Shown: in pieces, positions 54,228-62,802 of the stretch | How positions within the stretch are numbered: the first letter of the stretch is position 1 | How the letters are laid out: every line of letters starts with the position of its first letter | Source of the DNA: Haloferax sp. Atlit-12N | GTDB taxonomy: Archaea; Halobacteriota; Halobacteria; Halobacteriales; Haloferacaceae | DNA: 64,000 nt | Reading direction: 5' to 3' | Assembly: GCF_003383095.1 (NCBI RefSeq) | Contig: NZ_PSYW01000001.1 | Span: 868,001-932,000, forward strand | Translations under genes and position numbers: made by a program | The notes under the pieces: generated by a model | The model's database searches: none | Told to the model about the DNA's origin: nothing | The model's input: only the letters and a program-made list of their open reading frames with translations

Positions 54228-54812
54228 TTAGCGGCTGTCTGTCCCGGGTTCTATCGCGGCCGAATCGCCCGCATCGTCCGCCAGCACGTCGTCGAGTCCC
54301 CACTCCGACGCCCTCGCGCGGGCCTCCTCGCGGGCCTCGGACCGAATCTCCTCGATTGCGTCGGCGTCGGCGAGGAACGCTTCGACTGCGCTCTGGTCGC
54401 GGCCCTCTTCGCGACGGGCGGCGGGGGCGGCGTCGACGGTCTGTTCGGCCAACCGCTCGTCGCCGGCGAGGACGCGGGCCGGCTCGCCCGGCGGGATACG
54501 GAACGCCTCGACCTCGTGGGCGTCCGCGAGGGCCGCGGCGTCGACGGCGTGGACCGCGGCGCGGGTCGGACCGGTGACCGCGAATCCCTCCAACCCGTCG
54601 CGGCCGCCGACCTCGCGCTCCGTGTCGTAGGCGAGGACGGGGATCCCGTCTTCGAACGTGACGACGCCGCGGGTGGTCTCGCCGAGGAGGAGCGCGTCCT
54701 GCGGCTCGAAGACGACGTAGCCGGTCAGTTCCTCATCGAGTACCGCCCGAAGGACCGCCGCGGCGTCGTCGACGACGCGCGACCGGCGGAGTTCGCCCCG
54801 TGGGATTCTCAT
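54228..54812 (-). CDS. Partner of the MinD-like ATPase, unrecognised
   Basis: A 194-residue acidic protein whose start overlaps the MinD-like gene stop by 4 bp. The first half looks folded (RRSRVVDDAAAVLRAVLDEELTGYVVFE, TRGVVTFEDGIPVLAYD). The second is charged and Ala/Glu-rich, partly helical. No known motif was seen. Coupling to a MinD-type ATPase hints at a role in positioning or a shared complex. That is inference only. Confidence 0.7.
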   Translation of the reverse strand: MRIPRGELRRSRVVDDAAAVLRAVLDEELTGYVVFEPQDALLLGETTRGVVTFEDGIPVLAYDTEREVGGRDGLEGFAVTGPTRAAVHAVDAAALADAHEVEAFRIPPGEPARVLAGDERLAEQTVDAAPAARREEGRDQSAVEAFLADADAIEEIRSEAREEARARASEWGLDDVLADDAGDSAAIEPGTDSR

Positions 54813-55582
54813 ATCCGCTCGGGGACGACGGCGCTTTTGAACCGCTCCGCCACGTCGCGGCCGTCGCCGTCGCGCACGTCGAGTCGGGCGGCCGCCTCGC
54901 GGAAGGCGTCGGCGGCCGGGTCGTCGGGGGCGTGCGCGAGGAGGGGTTTGCCCTCGCGGCGGGCCGCCCGGACCGCGTCGCTCTCGGGGACTGAAGCGAG
55001 CGTCTGCCCGCCGAAGTAGCGGCCGGCCTGCTCGGCGATTCGGTCGACGTTCTCGTCGGGTTGCACGCGGTTGAACACCACGCCCGCCGTGTCGGTGCCG
55101 TACGAGTGGGCGTACTCCTGGACTTTCAGCCCGTCGGACAGCGACGGCACGGTGGGCTGGAGGACGACGACGATGCGGTCCGCGAGGACGACCGGAAGCA
55201 CCGCGCTCTTCGAGCCGAGCGCGGCGGGCGAATCGAGGAGGAGCACGTCCGTGTCGGCGGCGAGTTCGGCAACCACGTCGCGGAGGCGACCAGGGTCTGC
55301 AGCCTCGAACGCCGCGAGACTCGTCCCGCAGGGGACGACCGACATGCCGAACCGCTCGTACACCGCGTCGGACACGGCAGCGTCGCGCTCGTCGACGAGT
55401 AAGTCGTGGAGCGTCACGTCGGCGTCGTCCAACCCGGCGTGGAACAGCAGGTTCGCCATGCCCGTGTCCGCGTCGATGACGGTCACGTCGTAGTCCTCGG
55501 CGAGCGCCATCCCCAGCGCGAGCGTACTCGTCGTCTTCCCCGTGCCGCCCTTCCCGCTGGCGACGGCGAACGCCTCGACCAT
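54809..55582 (-). CDS. MinD/ParA-family P-loop ATPase
   Basis: A 257-residue ATPase. The deviant Walker A is ASGKGGTGKTTSTLALG, switch I and II include DADTGMANLL and LLLDSPAALG, and the later VLQPTVPSLSDGLKV is typical of MinD/ParA proteins. I chose ATG 55582, directly before the P-loop; earlier in-frame sequence looks non-coding. It probably positions a structure in the cell, or segregates cargo, with the protein encoded downstream. Archaeal MinD paralogues serve motility or chemotaxis, so its exact role is open. Confidence 0.9.
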   Translation of the reverse strand: MVEAFAVASGKGGTGKTTSTLALGMALAEDYDVTVIDADTGMANLLFHAGLDDADVTLHDLLVDERDAAVSDAVYERFGMSVVPCGTSLAAFEAADPGRLRDVVAELAADTDVLLLDSPAALGSKSAVLPVVLADRIVVVLQPTVPSLSDGLKVQEYAHSYGTDTAGVVFNRVQPDENVDRIAEQAGRYFGGQTLASVPESDAVRAARREGKPLLAHAPDDPAADAFREAAARLDVRDGDGRDVAERFKSAVVPERI

Positions 55583-55934: not shown

Positions 55935-56948
55935 TCAGTCCGCTTCGGCGAGCGCGTCGAGCAGGCGGTCGTTCTCGTCCGGGCGGCGGACGTTGATTCT
56001 GACGTGCGAGTCGAGCCGCTGGTAGTCGCGAGCGTCGCGGACGGCGAAGCCGCGGCGTCGGGTCTCGTGGAGGACGCGGTCGACGTCGTCGGCGCGGAAC
56101 AAGACGAGCGTACTATCGGCCGGGTGCGGGTCGTAGCCGAGTCGGTCCAGCCCCGCGATTATCCGCGGGCGCTCCCGTTCGACCCGGTCGCGCGTCGCTT
56201 CGAGGAAGTCGTCCTGTTTGAGACAGAACGTCGCGACTTCTACCGCGGGGGCCGACAGCACCCACGTACAGCGCGCTCGCGAGAGCCGGTCGCCGAGGTC
56301 GCCCGTCGCGGCCGCGAAGCCCGCGCGGAGCGAGGGGACGCCGAAGACGTTCGTCACCGAGTGGAGGGCGATGACGCCGTCGAGGCCGGCCGTGCTCGGG
56401 AGGCGCGTGAAGCCGAGGTACGACTCGTCGACGATGACGGGCGTGTCAGCCCGGCGGCAGTCGTCGATGAACGCCCGAAGCTCGTCTCGCGGGTAGGCCG
56501 TCCCGAGCGGGTTCGCTGGGTAGCTGAGAATCACCGCCGCATGCTCGGCGGGGTCGACGGTTTCGAGCAGGCGGTCGTGGGGAACGTGGACCGGCTCGCC
56601 GCCTTGGAGCCGGATCTCGCGGGCGTACTCGCCACAGCAGGGGGCCGGGAGCGCCACGCTGTCGCCCGGCGAGACGGTTACCCCGACGGCGAGCCGCATC
56701 GCCTCGATGACGCCTGCGGCGGGGACGACATCCTCGGGGTGACAACCCACGAACTCCGCGGCGGCGACGCGGAACCGCGAGTAGTCGTCCAACGAGTACC
56801 GCTGTGACGTGGAAAGCGCCGATTCGTAGACGCCGGCGATTCCGGGCGGGCGTTCCGGGTTCGAGCCGGTGCTGAAATCGACGAGGGAGTGGTCGGCGGT
56901 CCCGCCGTGGGTCACGTGGTCGACGTCGGAAACGGAACCGGGGTCCAT
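55935..56948 (-). CDS. CobD-like aminotransferase-fold paralogue with PLP lysine replaced by Asn
   Basis: A 337-residue protein of the aspartate-aminotransferase (fold I) CobD family. The substrate and cofactor loops look kept: SYPANPLGTAYPRDEL, VDESYLGF and a C-terminal VRINVRRPDEND. But the Schiff-base lysine that anchors PLP is Asn200 in SVTNVFGVPSLRAGF; the paralogue at 57775 has Lys199 in SLTKMFGLPG. It probably cannot carry out normal threonine-phosphate decarboxylation. It lies downstream of the cobalamin operon on the same strand. A scaffold or regulatory role is possible. Confidence 0.82.
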   Translation of the reverse strand: MDPGSVSDVDHVTHGGTADHSLVDFSTGSNPERPPGIAGVYESALSTSQRYSLDDYSRFRVAAAEFVGCHPEDVVPAAGVIEAMRLAVGVTVSPGDSVALPAPCCGEYAREIRLQGGEPVHVPHDRLLETVDPAEHAAVILSYPANPLGTAYPRDELRAFIDDCRRADTPVIVDESYLGFTRLPSTAGLDGVIALHSVTNVFGVPSLRAGFAAATGDLGDRLSRARCTWVLSAPAVEVATFCLKQDDFLEATRDRVERERPRIIAGLDRLGYDPHPADSTLVLFRADDVDRVLHETRRRGFAVRDARDYQRLDSHVRINVRRPDENDRLLDALAEAD

Positions 56949-57047
56949 ACCAACGTGCTAGCCACCAACCATAATCAAGGCTTCTGCGGGGACCATTTAT
57001 CTACCACCGTTGATTTCTCGGCCAAGAAGGCGTTTCGCCGGCGGTTC

Positions 57048-57782
57048 TCAAATCGAAGAGACGGTCGCGCGGTCGTCGGCGACGACGCCGTAGCTCGCCT
57101 CGTCGACGCCCCGCGGAATCGGGTCGGCGTCGTACCGCGAATCGATGCTCGCGAGCACCGCGTCGCGGACGCAGACCCGCGCCGCGTTGCCGACTTCGGT
57201 CGCGCTCCCCGAGAACGTCACCGAGTCGCCGGTGGGGTCGCACGCGGCGACGACCGCGTCGGTCGTCGTCCCCGGCGCGCCGCAACGCGCGAGGAGCGTC
57301 GCCGCCTTCGCCTCGACGGCCACGGCGACGAGGTTCGCAAGCGCACCCGGCTCCAGCGACCGGGTCGTCCCGACGAAAACGTTGACCGTGCCGACCGAGC
57401 CGTCTCGCTCGGCGTCGCCGACGACTGCCGCGTCAGACGTGTCTGACTCGTCGCACTTCCCCATCGACTCGCCGTCTATCGGGAGCTCCGCCGGGTTCGA
57501 CACGCCCGCGGTGGCGACCACCTCGACCGGGCCGAACCGGGCGCGTCGGGCGTGTTCCTGCCCCACGCCCGTCAGGAGTGTCGGCCCGCGCTCATCGAAC
57601 TCGGCCGCCGAGAGCCGCCGCTCGACGTACGCGTCGAGGTCCGTCTCGGGCCAGCCCTCGGGGACGGTGACGTTGAACGCGGCATCGGCCTGCGACTCGC
57701 CGCCGGCGTAGCCCGTCGAGAGCCAGCGCGTGTCCGGACGAATCAGCCGACAGACGCCGTCGCGGCGCGTCGCCTCAAACAT
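57048..57782 (-). CDS. cbiZ: Adenosylcobinamide amidohydrolase CbiZ
   Basis: A 244-residue CbiZ enzyme, which removes the nucleotide-loop side chain of salvaged cobinamide to give cobyric acid. The family blocks include LLTGVGQEHARRARFGPVEVVATAGVSNPAE and GTVNVFVGTTRSLEPGALANLVAVAVEAKAATLL, then CGAPGTTTDAVVAACDPTG. It overlaps the 3' end of cobD (57775) by 8 bp, so the two are translationally coupled. CbiZ with CobY and CobS fits a cobamide-salvaging archaeon. Confidence 0.92.
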   Translation of the reverse strand: MFEATRRDGVCRLIRPDTRWLSTGYAGGESQADAAFNVTVPEGWPETDLDAYVERRLSAAEFDERGPTLLTGVGQEHARRARFGPVEVVATAGVSNPAELPIDGESMGKCDESDTSDAAVVGDAERDGSVGTVNVFVGTTRSLEPGALANLVAVAVEAKAATLLARCGAPGTTTDAVVAACDPTGDSVTFSGSATEVGNAARVCVRDAVLASIDSRYDADPIPRGVDEASYGVVADDRATVSSI

Positions 57783-58797
57783 CGGTGGCGACGGCGGCGA
57801 GCGCCCGGAGCAGTTCGTCGTTCTCGTCGGGGCGTTTCACCGCGACGCGGACGTGCGAGTCGAGCGTCGGAAACGTCGTCGCGTCCCGGATGGCGACCCC
57901 GTGGTCGCGGGCGGTCTCGACCACCGCGTCCACGTCGCGGTCGCCGACGTCGAGGAGGAAAAACGGCGCGTCCGACGGGTACACGTCGAAGGCCTCGGAC
58001 AGCGTCTCGCGGAGTCGCTCGCGCTCGTCCGCGACGCGCTCTCGCGTGCGCGAGACGAACTCGGCGTCGTCCATGCAGTACGTGCCGACGGCGGCCGCGG
58101 GCGTGGAGAGCGACCACGCCCGCCGGGCCACGGCGAGTCGGTCGCCGAGGTCGCCGGTGGCGACGGCGAAGCCGGCGCGGATGCCCGGCAGGCCGAACAT
58201 CTTCGTCAGCGAGCGAGCGACGACGACGCCGGATTCGCCCGCGAGGCTCGGTTCGTCGGTGAAATCGAGGAACGCCTCGTCGACGACGAGGACCGTGTCG
58301 ACCTCGCGGCAGCGCGCCGCGAACGCCCGGAGGTCGTCGGCGGGCGCGAGTTCGCCCGTCGGGTTGTTCGGCGTGCAGACGACTGCGACCGCGTGGTCCG
58401 CGGGGTCGGCATCGAGTATCGCGTCGTGGGCGACGGGAACCGGCTCCGCGCCCTGCAGGCGAATTTCACGGTCGTACTCTCCAAAACTTGGTTGAGGGAC
58501 GAGCGCGGTGTCGCCGGGTGAGAGCGTCACCTCGAACGCGAGTCGCAGGGCTTCGAGACCGCCCGCGGTCGGCACGACCGCTGCAGGGACACAGCCGACG
58601 TAGTCGCCGGCGGCTCCCCGGAAGTCAGCGTAGTCGTCGTCGGGGTAGCGGGTCGAGGCGTCGAACGCCTCGCGGTACACCGCCTCGACGCCGTCGGGAC
58701 GCTCGGGGTTCGTGTTCGCGCTGAAGTCGAGGACGGTCGGGTCGGTCGTCCCGCCGTGAGGGACGCGGCTCCCCGTCCGGACGGATTCAGGGTCCAT
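57775..58797 (-). CDS. cobD: L-threonine-O-3-phosphate decarboxylase CobD
   Basis: A 340-residue PLP enzyme that makes (R)-1-amino-2-propanol O-2-phosphate for the cobalamin linker. The substrate-binding DFSANTNPERPDG, PNNPTGELAPADDL, VDEAFLDF and the PLP Lys199 in SLTKMFGLPGIRAGF are all intact, and VAVKRPDENDELL is near the C-terminus. It is in the order cbiB-cobS-cobY-cobT-cobD-cbiZ. The start ATG 58797 overlaps the cobT stop. Confidence 0.92.
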   Translation of the reverse strand: MDPESVRTGSRVPHGGTTDPTVLDFSANTNPERPDGVEAVYREAFDASTRYPDDDYADFRGAAGDYVGCVPAAVVPTAGGLEALRLAFEVTLSPGDTALVPQPSFGEYDREIRLQGAEPVPVAHDAILDADPADHAVAVVCTPNNPTGELAPADDLRAFAARCREVDTVLVVDEAFLDFTDEPSLAGESGVVVARSLTKMFGLPGIRAGFAVATGDLGDRLAVARRAWSLSTPAAAVGTYCMDDAEFVSRTRERVADERERLRETLSEAFDVYPSDAPFFLLDVGDRDVDAVVETARDHGVAIRDATTFPTLDSHVRVAVKRPDENDELLRALAAVATDV

Positions 58798-59839
58798 CGT
58801 CGATGTCGGCGTCAGCCTCGGTGTCGGCCCCGGCAGCGTCGGCCGTCGCGGTCCCGGTCTCGACCGCGTCGGGGTCCAACGTCGAGAGCACGTCGAGCGT
58901 GGCCGCCTCCACGTCGTCGAGGACACCCATTCGGTCGGCGAGCATGAGCGCGCCGCCCATACCCGCACCCTCCTTGGCCTCGCCCGCGTCGTAGCGGTCC
59001 AGCGGGTGCGTCTCGAAGCCGGGGTCAGTGACCGTCAGGTCCACGTCGAGCGCGTCTGCGGCGTCGGCCAGTTCGGGCACGTCGTCGGCGAGATACGAGG
59101 TGGTGGCGAGCGTCAGGTCGCCGTTCGCGCCGGCGTGGCGGGCGAGCGCGGCGGCCGCGAGCAGTTGGGTTCCGCCGCCGAGCGTCACGTCGATGCCGTT
59201 TTCGAGCGCGCCGACGGTGAGTCCGGCCACGACCGGAAGCACCGGGTCGCCGAGATAACGGGCGGCGCGCCGGGGCTTGTGGGCCGCGAAGCCGGGTTCG
59301 ACGTCGCTGGCTTCGAACGCCTCGGCGACGACCTCCTCTTTCAGGCTCGTCGGGTTGTCCGGCAGCGACGACGAGACGGGGAACTCCTCGCCGAGCGCGC
59401 GGAACACCGCGAGCGCCGTGGTCGTCCCGCCGGGGACGGTCTCGCCGATGACGAGTTCGTCCTCGGGGAGCGCGAGGCCCATCCGCCGGGCCGCCTCGAA
59501 CGCACCGGGGGCGGTCGGGACCGGTTCGCTCTCGCGGATGTCGCGGCCGGGTCGCGCGCCCACGTCGATGGTCGGCGCGGCGCTCGGCTTCGCGAGGCCG
59601 GCGTCCACGGTGAGCACGTCGAAGCCGGTGAGTTGCTTGACGGCGCGGGTGACGGCCGCAGGCGTCGGACAGCCCGTCGGACTGACCGGCGTCACCGGCG
59701 AGCGGACGGGCTCGCCGTACTCGATGATTTCGGCGTCGGCGCTCGGCGTGTGACCGACGAGCGAGGGGTCCGCGCCGGCGGCGCTGATGCCGGGAATCTT
59801 CGCCGTCTCGGTCGTGCCGGCGACGAGGACTACTCGCAT
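58787..59839 (-). CDS. cobT: Nicotinate-nucleotide-dimethylbenzimidazole phosphoribosyltransferase family protein CobT
   Basis: A 350-residue protein of the TIGR00303-type archaeal CobT family. Blocks are RVVLVAGTTETAKIPGIS, SPTGCPTPAAVTRAVKQL, DELVIGETVPGGTTTALAV and VTLGGGTQLLAAAALARHAGANG. It would activate the lower-ligand base for attachment to cobalamin. It is in the operon after cobY, and its stop overlaps the cobD start. The long Thr/Asp/Ala-rich C-terminus after about residue 330 is likely disordered. Confidence 0.9.
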   Translation of the reverse strand: MRVVLVAGTTETAKIPGISAAGADPSLVGHTPSADAEIIEYGEPVRSPVTPVSPTGCPTPAAVTRAVKQLTGFDVLTVDAGLAKPSAAPTIDVGARPGRDIRESEPVPTAPGAFEAARRMGLALPEDELVIGETVPGGTTTALAVFRALGEEFPVSSSLPDNPTSLKEEVVAEAFEASDVEPGFAAHKPRRAARYLGDPVLPVVAGLTVGALENGIDVTLGGGTQLLAAAALARHAGANGDLTLATTSYLADDVPELADAADALDVDLTVTDPGFETHPLDRYDAGEAKEGAGMGGALMLADRMGVLDDVEAATLDVLSTLDPDAVETGTATADAAGADTEADADIDDGP

Positions 59840-60444
59840 CGGTCCTCCGCGAGCGCGATGTCTGTCGGGCGGTTCACGTTGAGTGCGAGTCTGGAGTCGG
59901 TGGAGAGGTACATAGTCGGGTGAGTGTCGGTGTCGGTGTCGGTGTCAGTATGGGTTCCCGCCTCAGCGTCCGCGGGACCGACGACGCCCAGTCCGGTCGG
60001 GCAGACGGCGGTCCCCTCGTGGTCGAAGACGAGCGCGTCGTCGACGCTGGCTCCGAGGTCCCACTTCAGTTCGACGGGGACGCACGCGGTGGCGGCCCCG
60101 CCGTCTGCGGCCGAAACGACCGCATCGACGTGTTCGGGAGCCACGAGCGGCAGGTCGGCGACGACGGTGACGACCGGCCGGGAGACGCGGTCAAGCGCGA
60201 ATCCGAGGTCGGAGACGTAGCCGTCGCCGGGAGCCTCGATGGGGTCGAGGCCGAGGTCGGCGGCGCGGTCGCGGGTGTTCGGCGTGTGCGGCGAGGTGAC
60301 CGCGCGGACGCGCTCGACGCTCGAATCGCGGAGCGCCGCGGCGACTCGGTCGAGCATGGGCCGCCCGCAGATGTCCACGAGCGGCTTTTCGACCGGCGCG
60401 TCGAGGCGGGTGCCGCGGCCGCCGCACATCACGAGAGCGTCCAC
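59830..60444 (-). CDS. cobY: Adenosylcobinamide-phosphate guanylyltransferase CobY
   Basis: A 204-residue NTP transferase, the archaeal replacement for CobU. The signature MCGGRGTRLDAPVEKPLVDI and the metal-binding VVADLPLVAPEHV match the NTP-transferase fold. GTG 60444 (VDALVMCGG) is preferred over ATG 60429, since it overlaps the cobS stop as the other operon genes overlap. A run of Thr-Asp repeats near the C-terminus comes from a 6-bp GTGTCG-type repeat at 59924-59949, so repeat-length variation would stay in frame. Confidence 0.9.
   Translation of the reverse strand: MDALVMCGGRGTRLDAPVEKPLVDICGRPMLDRVAAALRDSSVERVRAVTSPHTPNTRDRAADLGLDPIEAPGDGYVSDLGFALDRVSRPVVTVVADLPLVAPEHVDAVVSAADGGAATACVPVELKWDLGASVDDALVFDHEGTAVCPTGLGVVGPADAEAGTHTDTDTDTDTHPTMYLSTDSRLALNVNRPTDIALAEDRCE
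59924..59949. repeat. Hexanucleotide microsatellite inside cobY
   Basis: About four tandem copies of a 6-bp unit (GTGTCG) encode a His-Thr/Asp-Thr run (HTDTDTDTDTH) in CobY. Because the unit is a multiple of 3, expansions or losses would change the linker length without a frameshift. Confidence 0.6.
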
Positions 60445-61193
60445 GTCACCACCCCCACGTGGACGGCCGCGGCGCGGGCCAGTTCGTTCGTCGCGCCCAG
60501 CAGGTCGCCCGAGACGCCGCCGAGTCGGGCCCGACCCCACGAGCGGACGAGGAGCGCGACGACCGGCCCGCAGCAGAGCGCGGCGACGACCGCGGGGCCG
60601 CCCGTGACCGGCGCGAGCGCGACGACCGGGAGACAGGCCACGGCGACGGCGAGGAGCCCCGACGGGCTGTTCTCGCCGACGAGCGCCGAGCCGAGTCCCT
60701 CGTGGGCGGGCGCGCCGAGACAGACCAACGTCGCCATGCCGGCTTTCGCGCCGACCTCGGCGGCGAGCGCGATTGCGACGGCGGCCGTGAGGCCGACGCG
60801 ACCACCCGCGCCCGCGAGGCCGAACGCGCCGAGCGCGAGGACGACGAACGTCAGCCCGAACGCGAGCAGGCCGCCGACGCCGGTCTGTGAGTCCTTCAGG
60901 ACCGACAGCCGCCGGTCGGCATCGCCGTGAACGACCGCGGCGTCGCCGAGGTCCGCGAGGCCGTCGGCGTGGGTGACGCCCGTCACGAGATACAGCGTCA
61001 CGAGGTACAGCGCGGCCGCGGTCGGAATCGGCAGGGGGAGTAACAGCGGGAGCGCGGCCAGCGCGCCGACGACGTAGCCGACGAGCGGGAACGTCACGGG
61101 CGCGCGCCTGAAAGCGTCCCAGTTCGACTCGTCGCCGCCGACGGGGAGGCGGGTGAGGAAGCCGAGCGCGCCGCGGAGGGCGGTCAGAACCAC
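60429..61193 (-). CDS. cobS: Cobalamin synthase CobS
   Basis: A 254-residue integral membrane enzyme that joins adenosylcobinamide-GDP to the lower ligand nucleotide. The family block is VTHADGLADLGDAAVVHGDADRRLSVLKDSQTG, with metal-binding Asp residues, followed by about six TM segments. It starts at ATG 61193, which overlaps the cbiB stop. CobS completes the cobalamin nucleotide loop together with CobT and CobY. Confidence 0.92.
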   Translation of the reverse strand: MVLTALRGALGFLTRLPVGGDESNWDAFRRAPVTFPLVGYVVGALAALPLLLPLPIPTAAALYLVTLYLVTGVTHADGLADLGDAAVVHGDADRRLSVLKDSQTGVGGLLAFGLTFVVLALGAFGLAGAGGRVGLTAAVAIALAAEVGAKAGMATLVCLGAPAHEGLGSALVGENSPSGLLAVAVACLPVVALAPVTGGPAVVAALCCGPVVALLVRSWGRARLGGVSGDLLGATNELARAAAVHVGVVTWTLS

Positions 61194-62086
61194 GCGACCA
61201 CCCCCGCGACGGCGAACGCGGCGAGGCCCGCCCGCGAGACGAGTCGGACGCCCCGCGCGGCGGTCGCCGCGTCGGGAGCCTCGGGACCGCCGTCGAGCAG
61301 GTAGTGACCGGGCTTTTCCAGTCGCGTCTCAAGGAGGACCGCGAGCGTCGCCATCGGCCATCCCGAGTTGGGCGACGACGGCCGCCGTGCCAACTCGCCG
61401 GCCCGCGTCACCGTGGCCGGCGCGCCGGCGACGACGGCCAGTAAGACGGCCGAGACGCGCGCCGGGAGCCACATCACCGCGTCGTCGAGGCGGGCCGGCA
61501 CGCGACCGACCGGCTTGTGTCGGTAGCCGAGCATCGAGTCGAGCGTGTTGACGCCTTTGACCCATGCGGCCGCGCCGACCGCGAACGGGAGCGAGACGGG
61601 CGCGAGGAGCGTAAACGCGAGCAACGGGGCGACGAGGCCGTCGGCGAGATTCTCCGCGGCGCTCTCGACGGCGGCGCTCCGGATGTCGGCCGCCGAGAGC
61701 GACGACGGGTCGCGCCCGGCCAGCGCCCGGAGTTCGTACCGGGCGGCGTCGAGGTCGGATTCGTCCGCGGTCGCCGAGACGACCGTCTCGGCCGCATCGA
61801 GGAGCATCCGAAGGCTCGTGGTCGAAAACAGCGCGAGCGCGGCGACGGCCGCGCCGAGCCACGGCGAAACGAGCGTCGCAGCCCACGTCGCACCCGCGGC
61901 GACGCCCGCGGCGAACGCCGGGAGCGCGACGGCCGCGAGCGCGCCGACGAGCGTCGGACGGGCCCACTCGCGGTCGACGGGGGAGACGAGTCGTCCGAAC
62001 AGCGCGACCGGGTGGATGCGCGCCGGGGGTTCGGCGAAGCCCCGGTCGAGCGCCGCGGCGGCGACGACGGCGGCCGCGGCGGTCAC
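61184..62086 (-). CDS. cbiB: Adenosylcobinamide-phosphate synthase CbiB
   Basis: A 300-residue membrane enzyme that attaches the aminopropanol linker to cobyric acid. Blocks are PARIHPVALFGRLVSPVDREW, ESAAENLADGLVAPLLAFTLL and LDSMLGYRHKPVGRVPARLDD, plus a C-terminal block rich in Pro, Gly and Trp (SGWPMATLAVLLETRLEKPG). GTG 62086 is the chosen start, coupled to the HAD gene by a 4-bp overlap. The first TM begins almost at the start. Confidence 0.9.
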   Translation of the reverse strand: MTAAAAVVAAAALDRGFAEPPARIHPVALFGRLVSPVDREWARPTLVGALAAVALPAFAAGVAAGATWAATLVSPWLGAAVAALALFSTTSLRMLLDAAETVVSATADESDLDAARYELRALAGRDPSSLSAADIRSAAVESAAENLADGLVAPLLAFTLLAPVSLPFAVGAAAWVKGVNTLDSMLGYRHKPVGRVPARLDDAVMWLPARVSAVLLAVVAGAPATVTRAGELARRPSSPNSGWPMATLAVLLETRLEKPGHYLLDGGPEAPDAATAARGVRLVSRAGLAAFAVAGVVAWF

Positions 62087-62718
62087 GGACACGGGTCCTC
62101 CCCGGCGCGCAGTCTCGCCGCGACCGATTCGAGCGTCGTCTCCCGCAGGTTCACGAATCGGCCGCCGACCGCCTCGATGCCGCCATCGGAGTCCGGGTCG
62201 TCGCCGACGTGGACCAGTTCGGCCGCATCGACGCCGAGGCCGCGGGCCGCCGCCTCGAAGGCCTGTTGGTGGGGTTTCCGCCACCCGCAGGCGACGCTCG
62301 TCGTGATGTCGTCGAAGCCGCGCCGGTCGAGGTCCGACCGGATGAGCGTCCGCGCGACGAGTTCGGGAACGGAACAGTTCGAGAGGAGGCCGACCGGGCC
62401 GGCCTCGCGGGCAGCAGCGACCGCTTCGACCGCGCCGGGACGAGTGGTCACCTCGGGGTCGAACGCCGTGATGACCGCGCGGCGGGCGGCGTTGTCCGGG
62501 GAGGCGACGCCCCGAGAGCGAAGCGCCGCGGCGACGTGGGCCGGAAGCGGGACTTCCGCGCCCTCGGGCGCGTCGATGTGGACCTCGCGGTAGGCGTCAT
62601 CCCAGTCGTCGGGGACGGCGACGCCGTACTCGCGGAGCGCGTCTGCGACCGCCGCACCGGGGTCTGACGGGTACTCGGCGTCGACGAGCGTGCCGAAGAG
62701 GTCGAACGTGACTGCCAC
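62083..62718 (-). CDS. HAD-family hydrolase
   Basis: A 211-residue HAD phosphatase or dehalogenase-like enzyme. Motif I is VTFDLFGTLVD, motif II LLSNCSVPEL (Ser), motif III CGWRKPHQQAF (Lys) and motif IV HVGDDPDSD. It heads the cobalamin operon; CbiB is coupled to its stop. Whether it takes part in cobalamin synthesis is unknown; an unlinked detoxification role is also possible. GTG 62718 is preferred because upstream in-frame codons read as intergenic DNA. Confidence 0.85.
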   Translation of the reverse strand: MAVTFDLFGTLVDAEYPSDPGAAVADALREYGVAVPDDWDDAYREVHIDAPEGAEVPLPAHVAAALRSRGVASPDNAARRAVITAFDPEVTTRPGAVEAVAAAREAGPVGLLSNCSVPELVARTLIRSDLDRRGFDDITTSVACGWRKPHQQAFEAAARGLGVDAAELVHVGDDPDSDGGIEAVGGRFVNLRETTLESVAARLRAGEDPCP

Positions 62719-62802
62719 TAGAATTTCATTGGCGAAACTGTACTTGAATATAGCGAAGCGGGGGATTCGGCTGTGGTGACCCATCGAGTCTCTCGCTGGC
62801 CG

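Follow-up and report, generated by a model that had tools for sequence, protein, structure and literature searches.

A CobD paralogue of Haloferax without the Schiff-base lysine, probably a pseudoenzyme kept under selection

The cobamide cluster of Haloferax sp. Atlit-12N carries two genes for CobD, the PLP-dependent threonine-phosphate decarboxylase, and the downstream copy has lost the lysine that forms the Schiff base with the cofactor. Why is such a copy kept beside an intact one, and what could its product still do? In the curated annotation of H. volcanii of 2021, the corresponding genes appear as cobD1 (HVO_0591) and cobD2 (HVO_0593), the latter given as isofunctional with cobD1, to which it is 51% identical, and as having no characterised homologue (PMC8305020). 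By gene order and homology, HVO_0593 is the same gene as cobD2 of Atlit-12N. The paralogy was thus already noticed in that work, whose relevant section and table make no mention of the lysine loss. A literature search found no other papers mentioning cobD2 or HVO_0593, nor any data on PLP binding, activity or deletion of HVO_0593.

The lysine site and its gene neighbourhood

All positions given here are those of the window, that is, the whole stretch of 64,000 nucleotides that was analysed. Within it, cobD2 (55935-56948, minus strand) is an intact open reading frame of 337 residues. Codon reading and alignment place an asparagine, Asn200, at the Schiff-base position (codon AAC, 56349-56351, minus strand), which pairs with Lys199 of the neighbouring cobD1 (SLTKMFGLPG; codon 58201-58203), and this in turn with Lys216 of Salmonella CobD (1LC5). 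The same codon and the same pair of residues had been pointed out in the first-pass annotation, whose further remark that the paralogue is not truncated agrees with the full reading frame and with an intact predicted fold. Against the equivalog model TIGR01140 (cut-off 290.55), cobD1 scores above the cut-off with 296.6 and cobD2 below it with 214 bits; the PLP lysine expected of a CobD is Asn200 in 15 of 15 orthologues. A single lysine, K244, is left in the whole protein of Atlit-12N. The CobD2 proteins of H. sulfurifontis, H. denitrificans and H. massiliensis have no lysine at all, and the remaining ones of the 15-genome orthologue set share no conserved lysine column. In at least three species, therefore, the protein has no lysine that could form an internal aldimine, and a relocated catalytic lysine was ruled out by these lysine-free orthologues.

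On the minus strand, the order from 62784 to 57048 is HAD phosphatase, cbiB, cobS, cobY, cobT-like, cobD and cbiZ, followed by cobD2 and the homologues of minD2 and HVO_0596. The genes upstream of cobD1 (58787-62784, minus strand; assignments as in PMC8305020) form the rest of the cobamide side-chain and salvage cluster. Next come the lysine-containing cobD1 (57775-58797, minus strand, ATG start; HVO_0591 in the H. volcanii annotation) and, between both cobD copies, cbiZ for the adenosylcobinamide amidohydrolase (57048-57782, minus strand; Pfam CbiZ). The next long gene downstream of cobD2 is the minD2 homologue (HVO_0595; 54809-55582, minus strand), with its partner gene, the HVO_0596 homologue (54228-54812, minus strand), behind it; both were assigned by homology. 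The place of cobD2 beside cobD1-cbiZ is fixed in Haloferax.

Upstream comparison revealed a conserved promoter-like block of cobD2 (56956-56978, minus strand) with the TATA-like TTGATTAT. This motif, TTGA(T/A)TAT, is conserved in Haloferax and ends about 22 nt before the ATG, a spacing that suggests a leaderless transcript of its own. Such a promoter-like element means that co-expression with the cob genes is not required. Further upstream lies the element CGGTGGTANNTAAATGG (56993-57009, minus strand), largely conserved in the genus. At up to two mismatches, neither a second copy of this element (CGGTGGTA) nor a regulator motif common to cobD2 and other genes was found in this genome.

Distribution, selection and ancestry

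Both cobD1 and cobD2 were present in all 15 Haloferax genomes searched, 12 of these loci being matched under species names, including H. gibbonsii, H. larsenii and H. mucosum. The asparagine occurs in every cobD2, through AAC in 13 genomes and AAT in two, and the lysine in each cobD1 copy read; identity of the other 14 cobD2 copies to the one of Atlit-12N ranges from 74 to 97%. Lysine in close homologues, set beforehand by the first-pass annotation as the mark of a sequencing error or recent mutation, is therefore absent, and the asparagine codon itself varies synonymously. As to whether the asparagine is fixed across Haloferacales, the expectation holds for the genus and stops there: the exact motif is absent from the 155 non-Haloferax genomes among the 170 Haloferacaceae genomes searched, and nearly all of those carry a single CobD, with lysine in almost every genus (about 60 Lys-CobDs, a subset of those in the sampled genomes, were read directly) and with threonine in one case (G036, below). 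Fixation at the level of the order was thus ruled out. Since every Haloferax genome carries a lysine-containing cobD1 next to cobD2, with a frameshift in one assembly, the decarboxylation step can do without cobD2. That assembly is H. massiliensis (G010, locus L092), where cobD1 is frameshifted after about residue 226, by sequencing error or true loss, and cobD2 is intact. One genome (G153) holds a tandem pair of CobD copies with lysine in both (L093, 2905-5018).

The selection analysis asked for in the first-pass annotation gave a median pairwise dN/dS (NG86) of 0.16 over 105 pairs of cobD2 and of 0.18 over 91 pairs of cobD1, that is, purifying selection as strong as that on the active enzyme. 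The most conserved stretch of cobD2 in the 15-genome alignment, residues 178-210 (56319-56417, minus strand), holds the former lysine loop in a new form. In its best 30-residue segments, starting at residues 178-181, 27 of 30 columns are invariant (permutation p 0.0006 for the maximum), compared with 22 of 30 in the same stretch of cobD1. Synonymous variation persists within these segments. No part of CobD2 is thus more strictly maintained than the loop that once held the lysine. With its catalytic residue lost, and its fold and purifying selection retained, cobD2 has the features of a pseudoenzyme; the proposal of a pseudoenzyme under selection, or of a new function, had been made before and is supported by these data.

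Other lysine-less relatives were found among haloarchaea. CobD-like proteins of G348 (SLTNIFGFPG) and G176 (SLSNLFG) have asparagine and that of G036 (SLGTTFG) threonine at the site, the last two proteins being without any lysine. Second CobD copies have threonine in G172 and alanine in G447 and G474, the latter two 65% identical to each other. The non-lysine codon scans covered asparagine and other codons beginning with A only; their pattern lacked the TCG serine codon of Haloferax, so that Haloferax itself was missed by them and seen by other comparisons, and one match (G364) with no CobD reading frame tied to it was left out of the count. The genomic settings of these genes differ. The gene of G348 (L102/L142) lies apart from any cob cluster, close to RHH-zinc-ribbon and ftsZ-like genes, and is the only CobD-like match of a 99% complete genome; three relatives of its genus have a Lys-CobD. 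In G036, of the Haloferacaceae, the sole CobD-like gene (L111, 5045-6067) adjoins a HAD phosphatase, the rest of the cob cluster not being nearby. The alanine-containing genes of G447 and G474, two species of another family, adjoin minD2 and HVO_0596 homologues (L114, 5091-7613; L140, 3833-6139) and are also close to RHH-zinc-ribbon and ftsZ-like genes. A CobD-like protein of G472 (L131) retains the lysine, but its SAN motif is lost (GTT) and DES stands in place of DEA; it may be an intermediate.

In the phylogenetic tree, Haloferax CobD2 forms a clade (support 100/100) with a stem of 0.76 changes per site and a shallow crown, placed in a large group with most Lys-CobDs; the G348, G172, G447 and G474 cases fall outside. 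Well-supported branches force at least two independent lysine losses, the best tree has four, and a single change occurs in 0% of bootstraps. Three alternatives were not rejected by AU tests: a common origin of every lysine-less copy (p 0.35), a clade that joins Haloferax CobD2 to the alanine pair and G348, and the grouping of Haloferax CobD2 with Haloferax CobD1 (p 0.46). A single origin of all lysine-less copies is not favoured, and the exact loss history is uncertain because of long branches. It is conceivable, if rather doubtful, that removal of the Schiff-base lysine was a repeated haloarchaeal route (Haloferax, the two-species alanine clade, single asparagine or threonine lineages) to a non-catalytic protein of the cobamide side chain, which beside minD2 and its partner gene in two lineages might couple cobamide precursor status to another process. 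In this regard, minD2 is also found next to cob clusters of the ordinary kind (G257, G190), so that its closeness to the lysine-less genes may be positional inheritance.

A remodelled pocket in a conserved fold

The loss of the lysine is real, as first described, but it is not the single substitution that it seemed: the pocket has been remodelled. Likewise, the statement that other cofactor-loop residues are kept holds in part, since CobD2 retains 79 and alters 32 of the 111 columns that reach at least 95% conservation in a set of 20 Lys-CobDs, and the altered ones are in excess in pocket motifs (17 of 39 versus 15 of 72 elsewhere; Fisher p 0.016, with motif limits chosen by us). In cobD1 numbering, the changes comprise R195 to H, L197 to V, L203 to V, G205 to S, F105 to C, N28 to G, N144 to A or S, and T147 to L, V or M. 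At the level of motifs, SAN becomes S(T/L)G, PSF becomes PC(C/S), PNNPTG mostly becomes P(A/S)NPxG, and RSLTKxFGLPG becomes HSVTNxFGVPS in 14 of the 15 proteins; the HGG motif is mostly retained. Residues that are invariant and new in CobD2 (C104, G28, N200, S206, C227), together with the near-invariant H196 and C105, lie mostly in the old pocket motifs.

Roles of these residues in binding PLP and substrate were assigned from what we take to be common to the CobD and HisC families. By alignment, Cys-Cys replaces Ser-Phe at residues 104-105 (56634-56639, minus strand), the Phe lost at 105 being presumably the aromatic that stacks on PLP, and Gly28 (56865-56867, minus strand) replaces the Asn of SAN that aligns with Asn32 of Salmonella CobD. 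Retained in cobD2 numbering are D174, S197, T199, R208, R304 and R317, of which Asp174 and Arg208 are expected to hold the ring and the phosphate of the cofactor. For the substrate, we took as a lead the Salmonella CobD residues H8, G9, N32, N157, R323 and R337, the two arginines being presumably those that bind the carboxylate. At the aligned positions, CobD2 retains the arginine pair and the glycine, has His in 14 of 15 proteins and the N157 equivalent in 12 of 15, and has lost N32; in three species, Asp or His stands at N146. Tyr51, which by analogy with HisC we expect to reach the active site of the other subunit, is Asp in three species, which makes it less likely that CobD2 completes the active site of CobD1 in a heterodimer. 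The single-chain AlphaFold model of CobD2 (pLDDT 91.8) has as its closest solved fold Salmonella CobD itself (1LKC, TM 0.86).

What CobD2 may do

Could CobD2 still be an enzyme? A new activity with lysine-independent chemistry, either PMP-dependent or in a Cys/His/Asn pocket without PLP, would make sense of the new invariant and near-invariant pocket residues and of the retained Asp174 and Arg208. The ColD/E1 PMP-dependent sugar dehydratases have a PLP fold with the lysine replaced by His, and are still active on sugar-nucleotide substrates. To our knowledge, however, the known PMP enzymes have His, not Asn, at this position, whereas all 15 CobD2 proteins have Asn and the expected stacking Phe has given way to Cys, so we consider a new enzyme unlikely. 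Far less credit is due to an isofunctional second CobD, perhaps acting through another lysine, to which the 52% identity with CobD1 and the 'yes' of the curated table, entered without a characterised homologue (PMC8305020), would point: the impossibility of an internal aldimine in at least three species makes that assignment very unlikely, and the absence of any conserved lysine elsewhere and the score below the TIGR01140 cut-off nearly exclude it. Decay, recent mutation or sequencing error would account for the loss of a catalytic residue, and is refuted by the asparagine in 15 of 15 genomes through two codons, the intact reading frames, the dN/dS of 0.16 and the conserved promoter-like block.

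The reading that we prefer, with a probability of about 0.72, is that cobD2 is a selected pseudoenzyme with a non-catalytic role. On this view, cobD2 goes back to a cobD duplication that probably took place on the Haloferax stem. In a burst of change it would have lost the Schiff-base lysine, with the PLP and phosphate portion of its pocket rebuilt, and selection appears to have constrained it ever since as strictly as the active enzyme. Judged from its sequence, CobD2, being without an internal aldimine with PLP, should have no L-threonine-O-3-phosphate decarboxylase activity in the known way. The retained fold, the two aligned carboxylate-binding arginines and the rebuilt conserved loop imply that it most likely works by binding, and we infer both a carboxylated ligand and a binding partner. 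Neighbourhood and analogy make a partner or regulator in cobamide side-chain synthesis or aminopropanol-phosphate supply the most likely role: CobD2 may sense L-threonine phosphate or aminopropanol phosphate and, without catalysis of its own, assist or regulate either CobD1 or the step that follows (CbiB/CbiZ). A point against this reading is the promoter-like element of cobD2 itself, which would allow expression apart from the cob genes.

Two specific forms of this pseudoenzyme reading stand about equal, and each is tentative. CobD2 may be a heterodimer subunit on which CobD1 relies for its activity or its allosteric control. In favour are a shared fold, whose active sites in this family lie at the dimer interface, and the co-occurrence of both genes throughout the genus, with precedents in LCB1/SPTLC1 as partner of LCB2 and in the trypanosomatid prozyme (PMC3794620, PMC3663545); CobD1 nevertheless occurs without CobD2 in nearly all other Haloferacaceae, and Tyr51 is not conserved. 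Just as possibly, it may be a stand-alone protein that binds or senses a cobamide precursor or another carboxylated metabolite, which would suit the invariant arginines aligned with R323 and R337, the highly conserved rebuilt loop and the promoter-like block of its own, but not so well the loss of the N32 equivalent and the Asp or His at N146 in three species.

The result would correct the curated assignment of cobD2 as a further decarboxylase, in an archaeon that serves as a model and is easy to manipulate genetically. It also offers a clean conversion of enzyme to pseudoenzyme, with the paralogues side by side in 15 genomes and with natural lysine-free versions. CobD2 may moreover help to explain the control of aminopropanol-phosphate supply. 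In haloarchaea, the step of the L-threonine kinase is a gap still to be filled (PMC8305020), to which cobD2, being restricted to Haloferax, cannot be the general answer.

Among known systems, Salmonella CobD (1LKC/1LC5; TIGR01140) shares with CobD2 its fold and gene neighbourhood, the HGG motif, the Asp and Arg of the cofactor site, and the arginines aligned with R323 and R337; it differs in the Lys-to-Asn change, in the altered SAN, PSF, PNNPTG and lysine loop, and in the score below the TIGR01140 cut-off. A CobD-like fold without Lys at the aligned site is also found in the solved structure 3FKD of Porphyromonas gingivalis, named L-threonine-O-3-phosphate decarboxylase, which unlike CobD2 is bacterial, has His (FSHAYGIPG) instead of Asn, and keeps PNNPDG. 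The TSB-like pseudoenzyme of eudicots is likewise a PLP-enzyme paralogue that does not catalyse and is retained for a non-catalytic function, but in another enzyme and pathway, inactivated at two other residues, and with a proven allosteric activation of TSA (PMC12727527). In LCB1/SPTLC1 of serine palmitoyltransferase, a paralogue without the PLP lysine is kept beside an active one, as is CobD2; that pair is a known heterodimer (PMC3794620), whereas the partner of CobD2 is putative.
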